A stretch of 64,000 bases of DNA from Saprospiraceae bacterium (lineage in GTDB: Bacteria; Bacteroidota; Bacteroidia; Chitinophagales; Saprospiraceae): assembly GCA_022448945.1 (NCBI GenBank), contig JAKVCV010000001.1:1-64000 (forward strand), given 5' to 3'. Shown here one piece after another: positions 42,252 to 52,156 of this stretch (positions are counted from its first letter, which is position 1; each line of letters starts with the position of its first letter). A program made the translations under genes and the position numbers. The notes under the pieces were generated by a model, which worked only from the letters and a program-made list of their open reading frames with translations, was not told the origin of the DNA and searched no databases.

Positions 42252-42388
42252 AAATTTGCACTTTCTGGATTTCAAAGCGGAAAAAGAATTAACTTGCAGT
42301 ATAAATTTATACATTTTGTTTGTTTAGTAAAATAAGCATAAATTAAAAATCATTATTGATTATTCACCATGTTTTATACTATATGATT

Positions 42389-44545
42389 ATGCAAAAATGT
42401 TTTTTTATAATAGTAATGATTTTTTTCTTTTTTGCTTTCAGTATTGATATTGCATATGCACAAACTGATAAGCGGGATCTAAACAATTCTAAAACCCCCT
42501 ATTCCCCTTATGGTGGTGTTTTTACACCTAAAGGAACCTTGAAGGTGCTTTTAGTTTTTGTTACCTATAAAGACAAAAGTACTGCAAATCCTAAATTTTT
42601 AAATAAAAACAATAAACTTCCTGAGTGGGATTATTTACAAAACAATAAACTTCCCTCATTTGTTGATCCTATAACTGGTGACTGTCCAGAGTATATATTT
42701 AACAGAGCAACTGATTTTGATAAGTATATTAACATGACAAAAAACAATTTTTCAAAACAGTTTGCTTCTATGTCAAATAATAAATTTAAGTTGATAGGAG
42801 AAGTATTTAAAGATTCAAAAGGAAAACCAACAGTTGTAGAAATTGATCCTACTGAAGGTTATTCATGGACACAAATGAATAGTAGGGCAGTGGATGCTAT
42901 GCGAAAGATAAATCCTAATGTTGATTTGTCTTCTTTTGATCAACGTAAAAATAGGCCCGATTTTAAATTTGATAATTCGGATACAACAATTCATAAACCA
43001 GATAAAATTATTGATTTTGTAGTTTTTGTTCATCGCTATAATAAAAATTGGATACAACAGCCAAAAGCCAGTATGCGTGGATGGATAGGATCTGGAGGAG
43101 GTTTTGCGGCAACAGGAATTGTACCTTCGAATAAGTTAAATGGTTATAGATTTGCTGAAGGTTTTACAATGACTTATCGTTCTGGGGTTTTTGTACATGA
43201 AGTTGCACATGTCTTGTTTAATGCGCCGCATATTATGGGTGTTAATAATGTTGTAGGAGATTTTTTTTATCTTATGAGTGCTGGTTGGGGTATTATGGCT
43301 CCTATAAGTATTTTTTCAGGATTTAATGCATGGGAACGTTGGTATTCAGGTTTTATAGATCCTGTAGCTGATATCAAAGATGAAAAAGATCTAAATGGTG
43401 GTAATGTTTTCTTATTACGCGATTATTTTACGACTGGAGATGCATTAAGGATAGAAATTCCATTTTCAGGTGGTCAGCACTTGTGGCTTGAAAATCATGC
43501 TAAAGTTCATCCTTATGATGAACATCCATGGAAGGGAAATGTACTTGGAAAAGGTGATACAATTTTTGGAACAGCAGCAGGAATTTATGCCTATGTAGAG
43601 TCAATTGAAGGTAGTAGGAATAATATTTTTTCGGCCCTCTCAAATCGTGCAAATGGGATTAAAGTACTGAATGCCAGTGGAAATTATGATTATCATATGT
43701 ATAAAGAAATACCTGTAATAAAAAATAATTGGGGAAATGTTATGCATAGTTTTAAAAGGATGGAACCAAATCCTATTTCAGGGATCAATAACTTTTATCG
43801 TTTCCCTTTTGATGGAAATAATGATGGAATTATACAAATTGACCCTAATTATAATTCCAGTAAAACGGAATGGTATGCACCTATTTTCAGAGAAGAAATA
43901 CAGCCTGATTCTTTTGTGAACCTCTATGGTTCATTTGGTTCTTTTGATCCTATACGATCCGAAGGATATACTAGCCCCGTAGCATTCAGAGATGGTGATT
44001 ATCTCGATATAAATTCTAACCCCTTGCCACTAAATTATCCTAAATACATATTGAAAGATAAAGCATTAGAGCCATATATATTGAACGGGTTGGCTATGAA
44101 GTTTTCGGCAATAGAAAATAGTAAAGATATGCTTGTTCAAATACGCTTTAAAAAAGTTAGTATATGTCATGATAATAGGTGGTCAGGAAATATTGTGTTG
44201 CCCAATATAACAGAAGATGAGAAGCCAGATTTAGTTGTGTCTAACTGTACTAAATTGATAATTGACAAAAGTGGAACTGTAAATACACATGTTAAAACTA
44301 ATAATGGAGATTTTATTATTCCTTCAGTTTTTACTGTTAGTAAGGATGCATGTCTTCATTTGAAAAGTAAATCAAGGCTTATTATAAAAGATGATTCCAG
44401 ATTGATTCTTGAAAAAGGGGCGAGATTAATTATGGACAGCAAATCTAAAATAATTGTCAGCCCTAATGCAGAATTTAATATAAATGACAATAAAATTGAA
44501 AAACATAAGTCTGCTAAAATCATTGATCAAGAAGGGAAAAGATAG
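42389..44545 (+). CDS. Secreted HExxH metallopeptidase (M6-like) with octad-repeat tail
   Basis: About 718 residues from the ATG at 42389; an ATG at 42356 adds 11 residues before the signal peptide. Cleavage is likely after SIDIAYA. Numbering from 42356, the zinc motif HEVAHVLFNAPH is at 281-292, giving two His ligands and the general-base Glu, with GVFV just before it, as in M6 (immune inhibitor A-like) peptidases. KTPYSPYGGVFTPKGTLKVLLVFVTY near the N-terminus is typical of this group. Residues about 665-712 form six eight-residue units (SRLIIKDD, SRLILEKG, ARLIMDSK and so on), a beta-solenoid pattern. No T9SS sorting domain is visible. Confidence 0.75.
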   Translation: MQKCFFIIVMIFFFFAFSIDIAYAQTDKRDLNNSKTPYSPYGGVFTPKGTLKVLLVFVTYKDKSTANPKFLNKNNKLPEWDYLQNNKLPSFVDPITGDCPEYIFNRATDFDKYINMTKNNFSKQFASMSNNKFKLIGEVFKDSKGKPTVVEIDPTEGYSWTQMNSRAVDAMRKINPNVDLSSFDQRKNRPDFKFDNSDTTIHKPDKIIDFVVFVHRYNKNWIQQPKASMRGWIGSGGGFAATGIVPSNKLNGYRFAEGFTMTYRSGVFVHEVAHVLFNAPHIMGVNNVVGDFFYLMSAGWGIMAPISIFSGFNAWERWYSGFIDPVADIKDEKDLNGGNVFLLRDYFTTGDALRIEIPFSGGQHLWLENHAKVHPYDEHPWKGNVLGKGDTIFGTAAGIYAYVESIEGSRNNIFSALSNRANGIKVLNASGNYDYHMYKEIPVIKNNWGNVMHSFKRMEPNPISGINNFYRFPFDGNNDGIIQIDPNYNSSKTEWYAPIFREEIQPDSFVNLYGSFGSFDPIRSEGYTSPVAFRDGDYLDINSNPLPLNYPKYILKDKALEPYILNGLAMKFSAIENSKDMLVQIRFKKVSICHDNRWSGNIVLPNITEDEKPDLVVSNCTKLIIDKSGTVNTHVKTNNGDFIIPSVFTVSKDACLHLKSKSRLIIKDDSRLILEKGARLIMDSKSKIIVSPNAEFNINDNKIEKHKSAKIIDQEGKR

Positions 44546-44703: not shown

Positions 44704-44711
44704 TATATTTG
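44704..44711 (+). promoter_or_regulatory. Candidate -7 box of the nqr operon
   Basis: TATATTTG is an exact TAnnTTTG match. TTTTTTG lies 24 nt upstream, just beyond the usual spacing, and TATG at the ideal 19 nt. The leader before nqrA would be about 57 nt. Confidence 0.5.
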
Positions 44712-44774
44712 CAGCAATAATAGAATGCAAAAGATTAGTATTTTTTATAATATATTTAACATTTAAGTTTATAT

Positions 44775-46385
44775 ATGACACTCTCAACAGCGCTTATATT
44801 TTCTATTGTTTTTATTATTTTTTTTATTTTCATAATGGGAACAATTGCAGAAAGGATGTTAAAAATCTCTGCTAAAAACAGTGGACAAAATCCAAAACAA
44901 TACGGAATATTACCAAATGATTTAAGCAGTATTTTTGGTCGCAACATTAGTAAACCATCTTATATACCTTCGAATGAAGATTTTTTTAGCTTCGATAAAG
45001 GATTTGATATCAAACTCATGGGGGAAGCATCAACAGAACATAAGATTGAATCTGTACATTCTGCTACTTATGCCATAAAACCCAAAGATTTTATTGGTAT
45101 GATGCCTATTCCCAAAGTAGTTGTCGAAGAAGGAGACTCTATAAAGTCTGGAGATATCCTATTTTATGATAAAAGTCGACCAGAAATTAAATATGCTGCC
45201 CCAATTAGTGGGGAGATGGTTCGAATTCAGAGAGGAGAAAAGCGTTCGATTAATGAGGTTGTTATGTTGGCTGATAAAGATATTGAATACCGTCAATATG
45301 ATTTGCCTGATCTGAATTCTGTTAATCGTGTGGATTTAGTAACTTTTCTACTTGATTCAGGAGCTTGGCCTTTTATTCGACAACGACCATTTGATATAGT
45401 TGCAGATTTTAATGTCGTACCTAAATCTATTTTTGTTACCACATTTGATTCGGCACCATTAGCACCTGGTTTTAATCTTACTGTACAAGGTAAAGAAACG
45501 GAATTCCAAAAAGGTCTGCAAGTGTTGGCAAAATTAACAAATGGAGATGTTCATCTTGGAATGGATGCGAGAGGGGAAAAACCAGCGGATGCGTTTATGA
45601 ATGCATCAGGTGTTGTTAAACATTGGTTTAAAGGGCAGCATCCTGCAGGTAATGTTGGAATTCATATCCATCATGTAGACCCCATTAACCCAGGAGAGAC
45701 AGTTTGGCATCTTGATGTCCATGGAGTTTTAGTTTTGGGAACATTGTTTGAAAAAGGGATTTTTGATACCGAACGCGTTGTAGCAATTACTGGTTATGAA
45801 ATAGCCAAACCGCGTTTTGTACGGGCTCATCAGGGGATATGTTTAGAAAAATTAGTAATGGAAGTTCAGTTCCAAGAAGAAAGAAATACAACTGATAAAG
45901 AGGGGAAACCAGTCAATATCTCAAGAAAAGCAGTTAGATTAATTTCTGGTGATCCTTTAACGGGCAAAGAAATTACTTCAACTGGTTATTTGGGTTTCTT
46001 TGATGATCAGATAACGACTGTAGAAGAGGGTGATTATTATGAACTTTTTGGTTGGTTACTTCCTAGAAAAGGACACCCAACTCAAAATCGTACTTTTCCT
46101 GGTGGGTTTTTCCCATCGACTGTATATAAAGCAGATACGCAACAAAATGGTGAGCATCGTGCATTTGTTGTTTCGGGAGAATATGAAAGTGTTTTGCCAA
46201 TGGATATTTATCCACAATATTTGTTAAGAGCTATTCAGGCATATGATTTTGAAAAAATGGAAGGATTGGGAATTTTGGAATTAGGGGAAGAAGATGTTGC
46301 TTTGTGTGAGTATGTATGTACTTCAAAGCATCCTGTTCAAAAGACCTTAAGAGAAGGTTTAAATATGTTGATGGAACAGGGATAA
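44775..46385 (+). CDS. nqrA: Na+-NQR subunit A with N-terminal transmembrane extension
   Basis: The cytoplasmic-side subunit of the Na+-translocating NADH:quinone reductase. The NqrA core begins at about residue 72 (FSFDKGFDIKLMGEAS) and includes VEEGDSIKSGDILFYD, KGQHPAGNVGIHIHHVDPI and GWLLPRKGHPTQNRTFPGG. At 536 residues it is longer than the usual 445-470. The extra 70 residues start with a strongly hydrophobic helix (about 5-22) followed by a polar linker containing KQYGILPNDLSSIFGR. No other ATG lies between residue 28 and the core, so the extension is not easily a start error. It heads the nqrABCDEF operon. Confidence 0.93.
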   Translation: MTLSTALIFSIVFIIFFIFIMGTIAERMLKISAKNSGQNPKQYGILPNDLSSIFGRNISKPSYIPSNEDFFSFDKGFDIKLMGEASTEHKIESVHSATYAIKPKDFIGMMPIPKVVVEEGDSIKSGDILFYDKSRPEIKYAAPISGEMVRIQRGEKRSINEVVMLADKDIEYRQYDLPDLNSVNRVDLVTFLLDSGAWPFIRQRPFDIVADFNVVPKSIFVTTFDSAPLAPGFNLTVQGKETEFQKGLQVLAKLTNGDVHLGMDARGEKPADAFMNASGVVKHWFKGQHPAGNVGIHIHHVDPINPGETVWHLDVHGVLVLGTLFEKGIFDTERVVAITGYEIAKPRFVRAHQGICLEKLVMEVQFQEERNTTDKEGKPVNISRKAVRLISGDPLTGKEITSTGYLGFFDDQITTVEEGDYYELFGWLLPRKGHPTQNRTFPGGFFPSTVYKADTQQNGEHRAFVVSGEYESVLPMDIYPQYLLRAIQAYDFEKMEGLGILELGEEDVALCEYVCTSKHPVQKTLREGLNMLMEQG

Positions 46386-46455: not shown

Positions 46456-47727
46456 ATGGGACCTTTTGATGTAGAATTTTGGAAGAAGTTACAGCCACCT
46501 AAAGAAAAACAGTTTTTACATGGGCTTTATGATGGCTTATTCACCCTCTTTTTTAAACCAAATGAAGTAACGCATGGAGGCACACATATTAAGGGCCCAA
46601 TGGACCTTAAGAGGTTGATGATTCATGTAGTTCTTGCCTTAACTTTATGCTATGTTTTGGGTGCTTATAATATAGGTCATCAACATTTTTTAGCATTAGG
46701 AGAGCACACTGGTATATTTGATGCACTTCATTTGAAATTAGTGATAGGTCTAGTTTCTTTATTGCCAATTTTTATTGTTTCCAATTTAGTTGGTTTGGCA
46801 ATTGAGTTTTATTTTGCTGCTAAAAAAGGTCATGCAATTGAAGAGGGGTACTTAGTAACTGGTGCTCTCATTCCTTTAATTATGCCACCAGATATACCGT
46901 TATGGATGTTGACATTGTCGATAATTTTTGCTGTATTTTTAGGTAAAGAAGCATTTGGAGGTACAGGAATGAATGTTATAAATATAGCTTTATTGGCTCG
47001 TGCATTTATCTTTTTTGCTTACCCTACAGAAATTTCTGGTGATGCACCTTGGGTTGCTGCTATTGATTTTGAGAATGGATTAACGGATTATAGTTTTATT
47101 CATACAATGTTTAATGGCTTTTTTAGTTGGATGGATTGGAGTGTGTTTGTAGGAGGACAGCCATTGCTGGAATCTTTTACAGGTGCAACACCTCTGGTTT
47201 TGGCTAGAACTGGTGGTTGGGAAGCAGTAACAGAGGTATATTCACCTGCTGCTATGTTCATAGGTGGTATACCTGGTTGCATAGGAGAAACTTCTAAATT
47301 GGCTATTTTAGTTGGAATAGGAATTTTATTAGTTACAAGAGTTGCTAGTTGGAGAATAATGTTTTCAATGGCTTTAGGTGTAATTTTAACTGGCATGTTA
47401 TTTAATGCTATTGGAGCAAATATGGGTTCTTATAGTGCTTATATGAGTGTGCCTTGGTACAATCATTTCTTAATGGGAGGCTTATTATTTGCACTTGCTT
47501 TTATGGCAACTGATCCTGTTACAGCTTGTGGTACTAATACCGGTAAGTGGATATATGGATTTTTAATAGGCTTTTTTGGAATGGTTATTAGGGTTATGAA
47601 TCCAGCGTATGCAGAGGGTTGGATGTTAGCTATTCTTTTAATGAATGTTTTTGCACCAACAATTGATTTTTATGTTGTTGATGCTAATATTTCTAGACGA
47701 TTAAAGAGGGTTAAAGCTAAAGTCTAA
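46456..47727 (+). CDS. nqrB: Na+-NQR subunit B
   Basis: A 423-residue integral membrane subunit that carries covalent FMN and riboflavin and takes part in quinone reduction and Na+ transport. The flavinylation motif is TGAT in SFTGATPLVLAR; Thr245 is the likely phosphoester-linked residue. IMPPDIPLWMLTLSIIFAVFLGKEAFGGTGMN is typical NqrB sequence, present across residues about 140-170. Roughly ten helices are visible. The ATG lies 70 bp after nqrA. It is closely similar in layout to RnfD, but the company of NqrA and NqrF fixes the complex. Confidence 0.95.
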   Translation: MGPFDVEFWKKLQPPKEKQFLHGLYDGLFTLFFKPNEVTHGGTHIKGPMDLKRLMIHVVLALTLCYVLGAYNIGHQHFLALGEHTGIFDALHLKLVIGLVSLLPIFIVSNLVGLAIEFYFAAKKGHAIEEGYLVTGALIPLIMPPDIPLWMLTLSIIFAVFLGKEAFGGTGMNVINIALLARAFIFFAYPTEISGDAPWVAAIDFENGLTDYSFIHTMFNGFFSWMDWSVFVGGQPLLESFTGATPLVLARTGGWEAVTEVYSPAAMFIGGIPGCIGETSKLAILVGIGILLVTRVASWRIMFSMALGVILTGMLFNAIGANMGSYSAYMSVPWYNHFLMGGLLFALAFMATDPVTACGTNTGKWIYGFLIGFFGMVIRVMNPAYAEGWMLAILLMNVFAPTIDFYVVDANISRRLKRVKAKV

Positions 47728-47774: not shown

Positions 47775-48527
47775 ATGGAAGAGAAAAAAGAAATGAATGT
47801 TTACCTGTATGTTTTTATACTAACTTCGGTAACAGCTCTTATTTTGTCACTTTTGTATACAAGTCTCAATCCTATTTTTGAAGCCAATAAAGCTGAGGCA
47901 AAAAAGAAGGCTATATTGAGTTGTGTTCCCGATTCAACGATTGATTTGAGTAATCAAGAATCTGTGACAAAAGCTTATGAAAAAGTTACTATGATTGCTG
48001 TCTCGGAGCAAGGTGAAATTTATACCAATGAAAATTTAGAAACGATTAATACATTGGCTACAGGTGGTGCAAAGAAATATAAAGCATTAGCGGAATTAGA
48101 TTTAGCTAATGAAGAGAAAAAAGAATCGTCCAATAGATTGTATCCAGTATATAAATATGAAAATGATGAGTCAAAGTATTACATTGTAGCAATAAGAGGT
48201 AATGGTTTATGGGATAAAATTTGGGCTTATATAGCCTTAGAAGAAGATCTCAATACGATTGCTGGTGTATATTTTGATCACAAGGCTGAAACACCTGGGC
48301 TTGGTGCGGAAATAAAAGATAGTGACAAATTTAAAGCTCAGTTTATAAATAAAAAAGTATTTGATGGTTCTAGAGTTGCTTTTACAGTTTTAAAAAGAGC
48401 TAAAAAAGGTGAACACTTTGTAACAGGAATTTCTGGAGCTACCATTACAAGTGATGGAGTAACTGATATGTTTGTAAGTGGAATGAGCTATTACAAAACT
48501 TATTTTAGCGCGCTAAAAAATCAATAA
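47775..48527 (+). CDS. nqrC: Na+-NQR subunit C
   Basis: A 250-residue subunit with one N-terminal membrane helix (about 9-29) and a large periplasmic FMN-binding domain. The flavin attachment motif is SGATIT, with Thr223 as the FMN-bearing residue. HKAETPGLGAEIKDSDKF is the family signature ahead of it. FMN transfer to NqrB and NqrC requires ApbE, which is not encoded in this window. The gene starts 47 bp after nqrB. Confidence 0.95.
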   Translation: MEEKKEMNVYLYVFILTSVTALILSLLYTSLNPIFEANKAEAKKKAILSCVPDSTIDLSNQESVTKAYEKVTMIAVSEQGEIYTNENLETINTLATGGAKKYKALAELDLANEEKKESSNRLYPVYKYENDESKYYIVAIRGNGLWDKIWAYIALEEDLNTIAGVYFDHKAETPGLGAEIKDSDKFKAQFINKKVFDGSRVAFTVLKRAKKGEHFVTGISGATITSDGVTDMFVSGMSYYKTYFSALKNQ

Positions 48528-48581
48528 ATATGATGCTTTTATTTTATGCATCTATTGAATTTATACAATAAATATTTAAAC

Positions 48582-49253
48582 ATGGCTGAAACTACAGTTG
48601 AAACAAAGAAAAAAAGTGGCTTACTTGGAAAAGAAGACATAAAATTGTTGAAAGACCCGCTGCATAGTGATAATCCTATTACAATACAAGTACTTGGGAT
48701 TTGCTCAGCTTTAGCAGTCACAGGTTCCGTGACAAAATCATTAGTAATGGCTGTTGCATTAATTTTTGTATGTGCTTTCGCAAGTTTAATTATTTCAATA
48801 TTGAGGAATTCTATACCTTCTTCTATAAGAATGATTGTTCAACTTTTAGTTATTGCTGGGTTGGTTCAAATTGTAGAAATTGTATTAGGGGCATTTGCAT
48901 ATACAGCTTATGTTGAATTATCTGTTTTTATTGGTTTAATTATTACCAATTGTATTGTTATGGGTAGATTGGAGGCATTTGCCATGGGTAATAATCCAAA
49001 ACAAGCCTTATTAGATGGCATTGGTAATGGACTCGGTTATGGTTGGATTTTGGTTGCAATGGCAGTCGTTCGAGAGCTCTTTGGAAAAGGAACGTTTATG
49101 GGGTGGGAAATTATGAATCCATTGTTTGCAATTGTTGGAGGTGAGTATACACTTAATAATTTAATGGTATTACCTGCATCTTCTTTATTTGTTATTGGTA
49201 TTTTTATTTGGGTACAGAGAAATGTTGATGATGAATTGGTAGATAAATCTTAA
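48582..49253 (+). CDS. nqrD: Na+-NQR subunit D
   Basis: A 223-residue hydrophobic subunit with six helices, from the ATG at 48582 (MAETTVETKKKSGLLG). The frame is open 36 bases farther to an ATG at 48546, but the shorter start fits the family better. NPITIQVLGICSALAVT and TNCIVMGRLEAFAMGNNP are conserved NqrD blocks; the latter holds a Cys that helps bind the membrane-embedded Fe centre shared with NqrE. It lies 54 bp after nqrC. Confidence 0.94.
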   Translation: MAETTVETKKKSGLLGKEDIKLLKDPLHSDNPITIQVLGICSALAVTGSVTKSLVMAVALIFVCAFASLIISILRNSIPSSIRMIVQLLVIAGLVQIVEIVLGAFAYTAYVELSVFIGLIITNCIVMGRLEAFAMGNNPKQALLDGIGNGLGYGWILVAMAVVRELFGKGTFMGWEIMNPLFAIVGGEYTLNNLMVLPASSLFVIGIFIWVQRNVDDELVDKS

Positions 49254-49325: not shown

Positions 49326-49934
49326 ATGGGCGAGACATTAAATATTTTTCTTAAATCTGCCTTTATTGACAACATGGTTTTAGCATATTTTCTAGGAATG
49401 TGTTCTTACCTTGCAGTATCAAAAACAGTAAAAACTGCTGTTGGTCTAGGACTGGCTGTAATTTTTGTTTTGGGTATCACTATGCCAATTAACTGGGTGA
49501 TAAATACATATCTTTTATCCGATAGTGCTATTGTTGCTGGTGTTAGCCTTAGTTTTTTAAGACTTATCCTTTTTATTGCAGTTATTGCGTCAATGGTACA
49601 ATTGGTAGAGATGATTATTGAAAAAGTTTCACCAGCACTCTATAATTCATTGGGTATATTCTTGCCATTAATTACTGTGAATTGTGCTATTTTAGGTGGC
49701 TCTTTATTTATGGTATCTAGAGAATATGGTTTTGTAGATTCTGTGTCTTTTGGATTAGGATCTGGTTTGGGATGGTTTTTAGCAATTGTGGCTATCGCAT
49801 CTATTCGTGAAAAGTTACGTACAGCTGATGTTCCACCAGCGCTTAGAGGATTGGGTATAGCTTTTATAATAACAGGTTTGATGGGTATTGCTTTTATGAG
49901 TTTAGCAGGTTTGAATCCTGCAGATTTCAATTAG
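49326..49934 (+). CDS. nqrE: Na+-NQR subunit E
   Basis: A 202-residue membrane subunit homologous to NqrD in inverted topology. SAFIDNMVLAYFLGMCSYLAVSK and LITVNCAILGGSLFMVSRE are family signatures; one Cys in each is expected to bind the Fe centre between NqrD and NqrE. Six helices are visible. It begins 72 bp after nqrD and 57 bp before nqrF. The start is supported by the conserved N-terminal helix. Confidence 0.95.
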   Translation: MGETLNIFLKSAFIDNMVLAYFLGMCSYLAVSKTVKTAVGLGLAVIFVLGITMPINWVINTYLLSDSAIVAGVSLSFLRLILFIAVIASMVQLVEMIIEKVSPALYNSLGIFLPLITVNCAILGGSLFMVSREYGFVDSVSFGLGSGLGWFLAIVAIASIREKLRTADVPPALRGLGIAFIITGLMGIAFMSLAGLNPADFN

Positions 49935-49991: not shown

Positions 49992-51317
49992 ATGAAATTG
50001 ATATTGTTATCTATATTTATTTTTTCTGCCTTGATAATGCTTCTGGCTTATGGGCTGATGGTTGCTAAAAAGAAACTTTTGCCTCAAGGTGATGTCTCTA
50101 TCTCTGTGAATAATGGTGAGAAAGTCTTAGAATTGAAACCAGGAGCTACCTTACTTACTGCTTTGTCAACAGACAACATATTTTTACCTTCAGCATGTGG
50201 TGGTGGTGGTACTTGTGCAATGTGTAAATGTCAGGTTAATTCTGGGGGTGGTGATCCACTATCTACTGAAATGAATCATTTAACAAGAAAAGAGGCAGCA
50301 GATAATTGGCGTCTAGCCTGTCAGGTTAAGGTTAGAAATGATATGGAAGTAGAAGTTCCAGCTGAAATTTTTGGAATAAAAAAATGGGATTGTGAGGTAG
50401 TTTCTAACTATAATGTTGCAACCTTTATTAAAGAATTTGTGGTTAAAGTTCCAGAGCCTGTATCTTTTGTTGCTGGTGGATATATTCAAATAGATGTCCC
50501 TTCTATTACAATCGATTATAAAGATATGAATATTGATTCCCATCCTAGAATGGGAAAGGAAAAAGATGAATTTGAAGGAGAATGGAATACTCTCGGAATG
50601 CGTCAATTTAAAATGGTAAATGAAGAGCCTATTTTCCGTGCATATTCAATGGCGAATCACCCAAAAGAGGCTGAAGAACAGCAAATAATTATGCTAAATA
50701 TTCGTGTTGCTCCACCTCCACCGATTTTTCATATGGTAGATGGAAAGCGTCAGTTTAAAGAATATATGGATGTTAATCCGGGAATATGTTCTTCTTATGT
50801 TTTTGGTTGTCAGCCTGGAGATAAAGTTACTATTTCTGGTCCTTATGGAGAATTTCATATAAAGCCTACAAAAAAAGAAATGGTATATATTGGAGGGGGT
50901 GCTGGAATGGCACCTTTACGTTCACACTTATTTCACTTGTTCCATACACTAAAAACTAGGGATAGAAAAGTATGTTATTGGTATGGTGGACGTGCACCAA
51001 GGGAATTGTTTTATATTGATGATTTTAGACAAATAGAAGCCGAATTTGACAACTTTACTTTCTTCATTACTATTGATAGAGACCCCAATGATCCTAATTG
51101 GATTGCTAAAAAAGATTTAAATGATCAAGATGGAAATTGTTTTTTTGGTTTTGTTATGCCAGAGTTGAAGAAACATTATTTAGATCATCATCCAGAACCT
51201 GAAGAAATTGAATATTATTTCTGTGGTCCGCCAGCGATGGCAGGTTCTATTTTTTCTGCATTGGATGATCTAGGAGTACCTAAAGAAAACATTGCGTTTG
51301 ATGATTTTGGAGAGTAA
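49992..51317 (+). CDS. nqrF: Na+-NQR subunit F (NADH dehydrogenase subunit)
   Basis: The NADH-oxidising subunit, 441 residues. One N-terminal membrane helix (about 2-23) precedes a 2Fe-2S ferredoxin domain with Cys69, Cys75, Cys78 and Cys110 (CGGGGTCAMCKC). The FAD domain has RAYSMANHP, and the NADH domain has YIGGGAGMAPLRSH and YFCGPPAM. It ends in IAFDDFGE, typical of NqrF. As the last gene of the operon it is followed within 20 bp by a strong terminator. Confidence 0.97.
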   Translation: MKLILLSIFIFSALIMLLAYGLMVAKKKLLPQGDVSISVNNGEKVLELKPGATLLTALSTDNIFLPSACGGGGTCAMCKCQVNSGGGDPLSTEMNHLTRKEAADNWRLACQVKVRNDMEVEVPAEIFGIKKWDCEVVSNYNVATFIKEFVVKVPEPVSFVAGGYIQIDVPSITIDYKDMNIDSHPRMGKEKDEFEGEWNTLGMRQFKMVNEEPIFRAYSMANHPKEAEEQQIIMLNIRVAPPPPIFHMVDGKRQFKEYMDVNPGICSSYVFGCQPGDKVTISGPYGEFHIKPTKKEMVYIGGGAGMAPLRSHLFHLFHTLKTRDRKVCYWYGGRAPRELFYIDDFRQIEAEFDNFTFFITIDRDPNDPNWIAKKDLNDQDGNCFFGFVMPELKKHYLDHHPEPEEIEYYFCGPPAMAGSIFSALDDLGVPKENIAFDDFGE

Positions 51318-51574: not shown

Positions 51575-52156
51575 ATGAGCAATGATATTTTAGATGATTT
51601 TTCGTTGTATAGTAAAAGTTTAAAACAGCGTCTACAGAAACATATTAGAAAAGGAGAACAAATCATTTGGGCAGAGCGTCCCAAGCAAGGTATTCTCTTT
51701 CGTTCCTCAGATGGTTGTTTAATCCCTTTTAGTTTATTTTGGGGCGGTTTCGCTTTTTTTTGGGAAACTATGGTTCAGGTTATGGATGCACCTTTAATTT
51801 TTACTTTGTTTGGAATTCCTTTTGTATTAATTGGTATATACCTTATTCTAGGGAGATTTTTTCATGATATGTATATTCGAAAAAAAACGATATATGGTTT
51901 GACAAAAAAACGAATTGTCATCAAACGAGGCTATAAGCTTGATTTTTTAGATTTGTCTAGTATAAGCAATATTCATCTAATCGAAAAAAAAGATGGTTCA
52001 GGCACTATATTATTTAACAATAAAGACAATCATGGAACTAATAAGAATAATTCTTATCATTTTGTATTGAGTCCCCCGAATTTGGTGTTTGGGTTTGAAG
52101 CTATTCCTAATGTTAAGAATATATATAATCAAATTGAGCAATTAAGAAATATGTAA
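51575..52156 (+). CDS. PH-domain membrane protein
   Basis: A 193-residue protein with a charged N-terminus (SLKQRLQKHIRKGEQIIWAERP), two membrane helices (about 48-68 and 75-93) and a C-terminal PH-like domain (YGLTKKRIVIKRGYKLDFLDLSSISNI). This layout matches small bacterial PH-domain proteins whose function is undefined. It has the same general design as the partial protein at the window start, though they are not obvious duplicates. It stands alone after the nqr operon and converges on rplT through a shared terminator. Confidence 0.75.
   Translation: MSNDILDDFSLYSKSLKQRLQKHIRKGEQIIWAERPKQGILFRSSDGCLIPFSLFWGGFAFFWETMVQVMDAPLIFTLFGIPFVLIGIYLILGRFFHDMYIRKKTIYGLTKKRIVIKRGYKLDFLDLSSISNIHLIEKKDGSGTILFNNKDNHGTNKNNSYHFVLSPPNLVFGFEAIPNVKNIYNQIEQLRNM

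Follow-up and report, generated by a model that had tools for sequence, protein, structure and literature searches.

The window analyzed here is a stretch of 64,000 nucleotides from a genome of the Saprospiraceae, a family found in marine and wastewater habitats (assembly GCA_022448945.1, contig JAKVCV010000001.1, positions 1 to 64,000). Its closest named record is Aureispira sp. CCB-QB1, at 76% identity, and judged by that record the genome belongs with Aureispira.

The nqr operon and the N terminus of NqrA

On the forward strand, a complete nqrABCDEF operon is headed by nqrA, an open reading frame (ORF) of 536 codons at 44775-46385 with its ATG at 44775. It is followed downstream, on the same strand, by nqrB (46456-47727), nqrC with its FMN-binding domain (47775-48527), the Rnf-Nqr membrane subunit genes nqrD (48546-49253) and nqrE (49326-49934), and nqrF (49992-51317). 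Subunits A, B, and F were assigned by NCBIfam, and subunits C, D, and E by Pfam and gene order. The ORF 5' of nqrA (42356-44545, 729 aa) has no Pfam match at an E value of 0.01 and contains HEVAH, which we take to be a zinc-protease-like motif. The ORF 3' of nqrF (51575-52156, 193 aa) has a weak PuhB match (40.4 bits against a cutoff of 110) and none in Pfam.

The core of NqrA, residues 73 to 536 plus stop (44991-46385), is recognized by family models, PDB alignment, and Foldseek. NCBIfam models NF003761 (487.1 bits, cutoff 450) and TIGR01936 (425.5 bits, cutoff 321.05) match residues 74 to 534, and equivalog models NF003759, NF003762, and NF003758 also match, under their cutoffs. The AlphaFold2 model has the NqrA fold, with an E value of 2.9e-44 against 8a1y_A in Foldseek and a TM-score of 0.88 by target length. 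As the family models begin to match only at residues 73 to 75 of 536, and the Vibrio cholerae NqrA structures in the PDB align only from residues 71 to 73, about 72 residues are extra, in agreement with the 71 that the original prediction had counted before the core. Within the core, Aureispira NqrA proteins have an insertion of ~18 residues, in the window at 45864-45929 (residues ~364 to 385). The core measures 464 to 466 residues in Aureispira, versus about 446 in three other loci (L060, L016, and L165), and is longer still, at 478 residues, in Saprospira grandis.

The N-terminal extension (residues 1 to 72, 44775-44990) is delimited by the family models and alignments, together with the conservation and profile matches described below. 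An in-frame TAA at 44757-44759, six codons 5' of the ATG, leaves no space for a signal peptide in the window species. The base at -3 of the start codon is T, not the favorable A (compare the available text of PMC6847099). Before the core, in-frame ATGs otherwise occur only at codons 21 and 28, within or just past the helix, so that no ATG yields a clean core, as had been claimed.

The extension consists of a hydrophobic helix and then a linker. The best 19-residue window has a mean Kyte-Doolittle value of 2.91, the first charge falls at residue 26, and no Lys or Arg precedes the helix while four occur in the 25 residues that follow it. AlphaFold2, run with 43 sequences (mean pLDDT of 87.2), gives a single helix over residues 2 to 35, with block pLDDT values of 84, 90, and 79 over residues 1 to 30 and 59 to 66 over residues 31 to 60. 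The strong hydrophobic helix of the original prediction is thus upheld, but it is longer than the proposed extent of about residues 5 to 22. Hydropathy, the AlphaFold2 model, and the lack of charge before residue 26 point to residues 2 to 24 (44778-44846) as the predicted transmembrane part. Because a 34-residue helix exceeds what the membrane needs, about ten of its residues should protrude into the cytoplasm.

This putative cytoplasmic helix end belongs to a stretch, residues 25 to 39 (44847-44891), that aligns with the motif DNLLxIEAKxxGxD of relatives. Within it, A33 is kept in 86 and G37 in 89 of the 114 rows of the extension alignment. A second conserved patch follows at residues 44 to 56 (44904-44942), where P47 is kept in 103 of 114 rows and AlphaFold2 predicts a short helix at residues 49 to 53. 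Residues 61 to 70 (44955-44984), directly 5' of the core, are again modeled with high confidence (block pLDDT of 90). The best-kept linker positions are 26 (Asp, Glu here), 28 (Leu, Met here), I31, A33, G37, P47, and P61.

Conservation and distribution of the extension

The original prediction had named a lack of conservation in close relatives as its own refutation, and the comparison does not refute it. NqrA was matched in seven of the eight other Aureispira genomes searched, and each of these carries the extension from residue 1, with no frame-breaking indels. The dN/dS of the extension is 0.17 to 0.52 in 16 of the 18 listed pairs (18 of 28 pairs; the other two listed have no dS estimate). 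Constraint is weaker than on the core, with dN of 0.34 to 0.60 versus 0.13 to 0.22 in Aureispira pairs. The extension is under purifying selection, in frame. In the rest of the Saprospiraceae sample, NqrA is matched in 27 of 28 genomes (all but G019), 25 of them with a readable gene start (all but G020 and G021), and a hydrophobic segment lies 5' of the core in all 25, with G033 atypical.

A profile built from 12 extensions of genera other than Aureispira (A3) matches the window genome at the extension and nowhere else (E value of 2.9e-6). It found four of the five Aureispira genomes tried, missing G004 at an E value of ≤0.1, and at the same threshold 10 of 20 chosen genomes, missing G004 and divergent extensions such as those of G378, G045, and G033. 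As divergent extensions escape it, profile counts are lower bounds. Among 396 genomes of the order, the extension profile A1, introduced below, matched, at an E value of ≤0.001, only NqrA frames of 514 to 590 aa and two fragments (191 and 340 aa); weaker matches (E values of 0.001 to 0.007) fell in four genomes without an NqrA match (G289, G281, G323, and G381). A Pfam search of three NqrA extensions gave no significant family (best E value of 0.096). With no significant Pfam match and with profile matches confined to NqrA frames, the fusion of a known domain was rejected.

Profile A1 was built from 16 extensions, the window's included, and searched against the same 396 genomes. At an E value of ≤0.01 it matched 110 genomes, 4 of them without an NqrA match, leaving 106 of the 157 NqrA-containing genomes with a profile match. 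In the window's own family (f1), 96 of 119 genomes were matched; individual reading of the remaining 23 found a hydrophobic segment in 11 and none in 9, with 3 not judgeable. In total, 107 of the 116 f1 genomes with a judgeable gene start are carriers. Carriers known by name are Saprospira grandis, Phaeodactylibacter xiamenensis, Neolewinella xylanilytica, and a metagenome-assembled genome labeled Haliscomenobacter hydrossis; Membranihabitans has a signal peptide, a helix, and a shorter linker. In the other families of the order, the profile found the extension in 10 of 38 genomes (f5, f10, f13, f18, f21, and f22) and reading added G087 (f22). Fifteen more of these 38 were read as lacking it, namely G098 (f22) and 14 genomes in f2, f6, f9, f11, f12, f14, and f17.

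Across the phylum, A3 matched six times in 395 genomes: five Saprospiraceae NqrA proteins and one stop-broken frame (E value of 0.006). NqrA scored over the cutoff in 67 of these genomes, 6 of Saprospiraceae and 61 others, and all 6 Saprospiraceae members have long frames (541 to 567 aa) and count as carriers. Among the 61 others, seven long frames were read (477 to 580 aa); each has an ATG only a few codons from the core and no extension. The other 54, judged by frame length, reach at most 478 aa, which would not accommodate most forms of the module. These counts support a restricted distribution within Bacteroidota.

The nine f1 genomes read as lacking the extension comprise six of one group (g70) and three others (G212, G313, and G297) with an apparent loss. 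NqrA from g70 (L129 and L134 to L139) is unextended, and in the core tree it falls among sequences from other Bacteroidota, although the genomes are filed under the same family; their operon was possibly replaced. In L144, L145, and L148, also family members, the helix of NqrA seems lost, and the first two keep a short hydrophobic stretch 5' of the ATG that could be a remnant.

Predicted signal peptides and topology, and a shifted promoter-like element

In most of the family, more sequence precedes the helix. The start codon is often TTG, the n-region is short and basic (frequently MKN..K), and the hydrophobic stretch after it closes with A-x-A or AQ. By our own rule and by eye, the stretch before the helix in most relatives is a putative Sec-type signal peptide. 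Of 184 initial loci, one was left out for a gene start at the contig end (L140) and one held no NqrA (L180). The automatic rule coded the remaining 182 as 89 with signal peptide and helix, 53 with helix, and 40 with neither. Inspection by eye moved 19 loci from helix to signal peptide and helix, mostly for an acidic residue close to where cleavage would occur; it moved L008 and L055 from signal peptide and helix to helix, and L129, L135, and L144 to neither. Three loci with an atypical double hydrophobic stretch (L033, L100, and L163) were kept as helix. The final coding is 106, 33, and 43 loci, respectively. After cores >97% identical were merged and four that were too short for the tree (L009, L043, L044, and L166) were omitted, 153 distinct cores remained: 89 coded as signal peptide and helix, 25 as helix only, and 39 as neither.

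By the positive-inside rule, the flank of a membrane helix that is rich in Lys and Arg lies inside. In the 89 signal-peptide rows, Lys and Arg average 0.15 over the 12 residues that lead into the helix and 2.75 over the 25 that follow, and the excess after the helix is seen in 86 of these rows and in 21 of the 25 helix-only rows. The bias is absent in 7 of 114 rows; in L095, L097, and L098, codons upstream of the ATG were counted. Under this rule the predicted topology has the N terminus outside and the core inside, which agrees with what NQR requires. The distance from helix to core has a median of 47 to 48 residues and ranges from 22 to 57. Membrane insertion, orientation, helix length, and the signal peptides are all predicted.

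The cores were placed in a quick maximum-likelihood tree, which has 49 open forks of 150 and a very long branch at L152; on it, the three states need 13 changes, versus a shuffled mean of 56.7. The helix-only state needs 7 changes, at least 4 of them forced by well-supported branches, and extended versus unextended needs 6; gains and losses look alike on this tree. One helix-only clade (SH-aLRT of 100) unites Aureispira, Saprospira, and G378 and adjoins the signal-peptide row L060 (support of 90). Likely, with the direction inferred, the module was gained early, the signal peptide lost repeatedly, and the helix lost a few times. The losses of the signal peptide probably include the Aureispira/Saprospira clade, with the helix retained. 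Compared with most relatives, the NqrA of the window has a shortened form of the module, without the signal peptide.

The promoter of the gene had been proposed to lie upstream of the long start, and a promoter-like element is found there. In the available text of PMC6847099, the Bacteroidota -7 element is TAnnTTTG, refined to TAHHTTTG in Flavobacterium johnsoniae. The refined consensus is matched on the forward strand by TATATTTG (44704-44711), from which transcription is expected to start at about 44716, 59 nt 5' of the ATG. Among the 149 of 153 rows with enough upstream DNA, the 450 nt 5' of the core contain TAnnTTTG in 83 of 87 rows with a signal peptide (22.8 expected from two-base-block shuffles), in 25 of 25 with the helix only (7.0 expected), and in 31 of 37 without an extension (8.3 expected). 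The sites cluster by N terminus. With a signal peptide, 87 of 94 fall at -450 to -301; with the helix only, 23 of 36 fall at -300 to -201; and without an extension, 31 of 36 fall at -150 to -51. The promoter-like element sits 5' of the long start, and the longer the N terminus, the farther from the core it is found. A second TAnnTTTG match, TATTTTTG (44930-44937), lies inside the extension and also fits the -7 consensus. It is one of only two sites <100 nt from the core among helix-only rows, and a shorter transcript from 44930 is conceivable in the window species.

A proposed membrane tether and its alternatives

The protein encoded by ORF 44775-46385 is a true NqrA. Conservation, the position of the promoter-like element, topology signals, and the AlphaFold2 model support an extra anchor at its N terminus, predicted to insert in the membrane. 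We favor, at a probability of about 0.7, an anchor that serves as a tether for NqrA beside NqrB. Translation would start at 44775, and residues 2 to 24 would insert in the inner membrane, leaving a short N terminus outside and the remainder inside. In most relatives the Sec signal peptide would perform the same insertion, and the same topology would remain if it were cleaved. The helix would continue about ten residues into the cytoplasm and pass into a mostly flexible linker, with ~47 residues from helix end to core, the last ten of which look ordered. The anchor would hold NqrA at the membrane on top of the canonical C-terminal docking loop, make it an integral subunit with one helix, like NqrC and NqrF, and stabilize the NqrA-NqrB-NqrF contact.

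In V. cholerae, NqrA is kept in place by a C-terminal loop (R330 to N379) that is intertwined with the N terminus of NqrB, part of which forms the inhibitor site (PMC9325719, available text). The counterpart in the window of this hydrophobic loop, which docks at the membrane surface, is LFGWLLP, residues 424 to 430 (46044-46064), which aligns with V. cholerae L334 to P340; L424, F425, W427, and P430 correspond to L334, F335, W337, and P340, while A338 is replaced by L428. As these hydrophobic residues are kept, the anchor appears to be an addition and not a replacement. The change in recruitment to the complex that the original prediction expected from a tethered NqrA may occur, with the canonical docking residues still in place.

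The main rival to the tether is a specific intramembrane role, in which the helix packs on one particular subunit from NqrB to NqrF and alters the pump, for example through quinone access or subunit movement. The nearly constant spacing of helix and core would fit such a role, as would the conservation of membrane-proximal positions (Asp or Glu at 26, I31, A33, G37, and P47) beyond the needs of a bare tether. However, the hydrophobic residues of the helix are interchangeable, none within residues 4 to 24 reaching two thirds of the 114 rows, and the linker sequence differs in four lineages (L033, L115, L118, and L153). Moreover, the N terminus of NqrB, the nearest candidate partner, does not covary with the extension, and we consider this role unlikely, if the strongest of the competing explanations.

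A coevolving NqrB N terminus was rejected as a candidate because absence of its FxKGGK-type motif follows ancestry. The motif, in the stretch that docks to NqrA, is missing in extended genomes, but also in unextended members of the order (L205, L207 to L210, L215, and L216), and three lineages with an apparent loss of the extension (L212 to L214) retain the extended type of NqrB. Among the NqrB starts read (L054 to L133 and L198 to L217), the motif is absent in most genomes of the order and present in most other Bacteroidota.

Tethering to a partner outside NQR, such as a respiratory complex, to build a supercomplex is a good deal less probable; the conserved linker patches without a Pfam counterpart could bind such a partner, but no partner gene was found. 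Least credible is a start-site artefact, with translation beginning near the core or an upstream frame open by chance in AT-rich DNA: some relatives do have upstream frames open far past the start, low-GC DNA readily encodes hydrophobic runs, and G741, outside the family, has a long chance frame, but the in-frame purifying selection, the recovery of the window stretch by a profile without Aureispira rows, the promoter-like element shifted in step with the extension, and the lack of an ATG for a clean core show that the extension is no such artefact.

Beyond the tether, a bolder and rather doubtful extrapolation would make NqrA an integral subunit across Saprospiraceae, whose helix and conserved membrane-proximal motif add a specific contact within the NQR membrane domain that controls assembly or quinone access. 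Its insertion would have relied on a Sec signal peptide, discarded repeatedly once the helix could insert by itself.

NqrA has no known cofactor and no assigned function, and a clade with a membrane-bolted form of the subunit offers a natural experiment on its role. The putative signal peptide is of interest too. It precedes a subunit with a main domain that has to remain cytoplasmic, and its apparently repeated loss, with the helix retained, makes a clean case of a topology kept through different targeting signals. In the literature searched (titles and abstract openings, mostly of open papers), no N-terminal helix or signal peptide on NqrA is described, and the main text of PMC4014512, on NQR evolution from Bacteroidetes, does not contain the terms "Saprospira," "Haliscomenobacter," or "N-terminal." Within that literature, the helix-anchored NqrA would be a variant of a known subunit without an earlier description. 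As the original prediction stated, NqrA is known as free of transmembrane helices, on which the available texts of PMC4014512, PMC9325719, and PMC10643135 agree. Hydropathy, charge bias, the AlphaFold2 model, and conservation predict that the NqrA described here has one, which would correct that general statement.

The NqrA of V. cholerae (PDB 8a1u, 7xk3, and 4u9o) is homologous to the core over its full length (phmmer E value of 6.6e-77, residues 71 to 536), is the source of the best Foldseek match, and shares the docking-loop residues. Whereas it has no transmembrane helix (PMC9325719 and PMC10643135, as available), 72 residues of helix and linker precede the core in the window. RnfC of the Rnf complexes has a similar fold (Foldseek E value of 1.1e-21 and weaker) but is set apart from NqrA by binding FMN and iron-sulfur clusters (PMC12174285, available text). 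In the same text, Azotobacter vinelandii RnfC has a long extra helix at its C terminus that contacts RnfB and RnfH, whereas the helix in the window is N-terminal. The likeness to the single-helix subunits NqrC and NqrF is one of layout; they carry a hydrophilic domain on one helix (PMC9325719, available text), as we propose here for NqrA.
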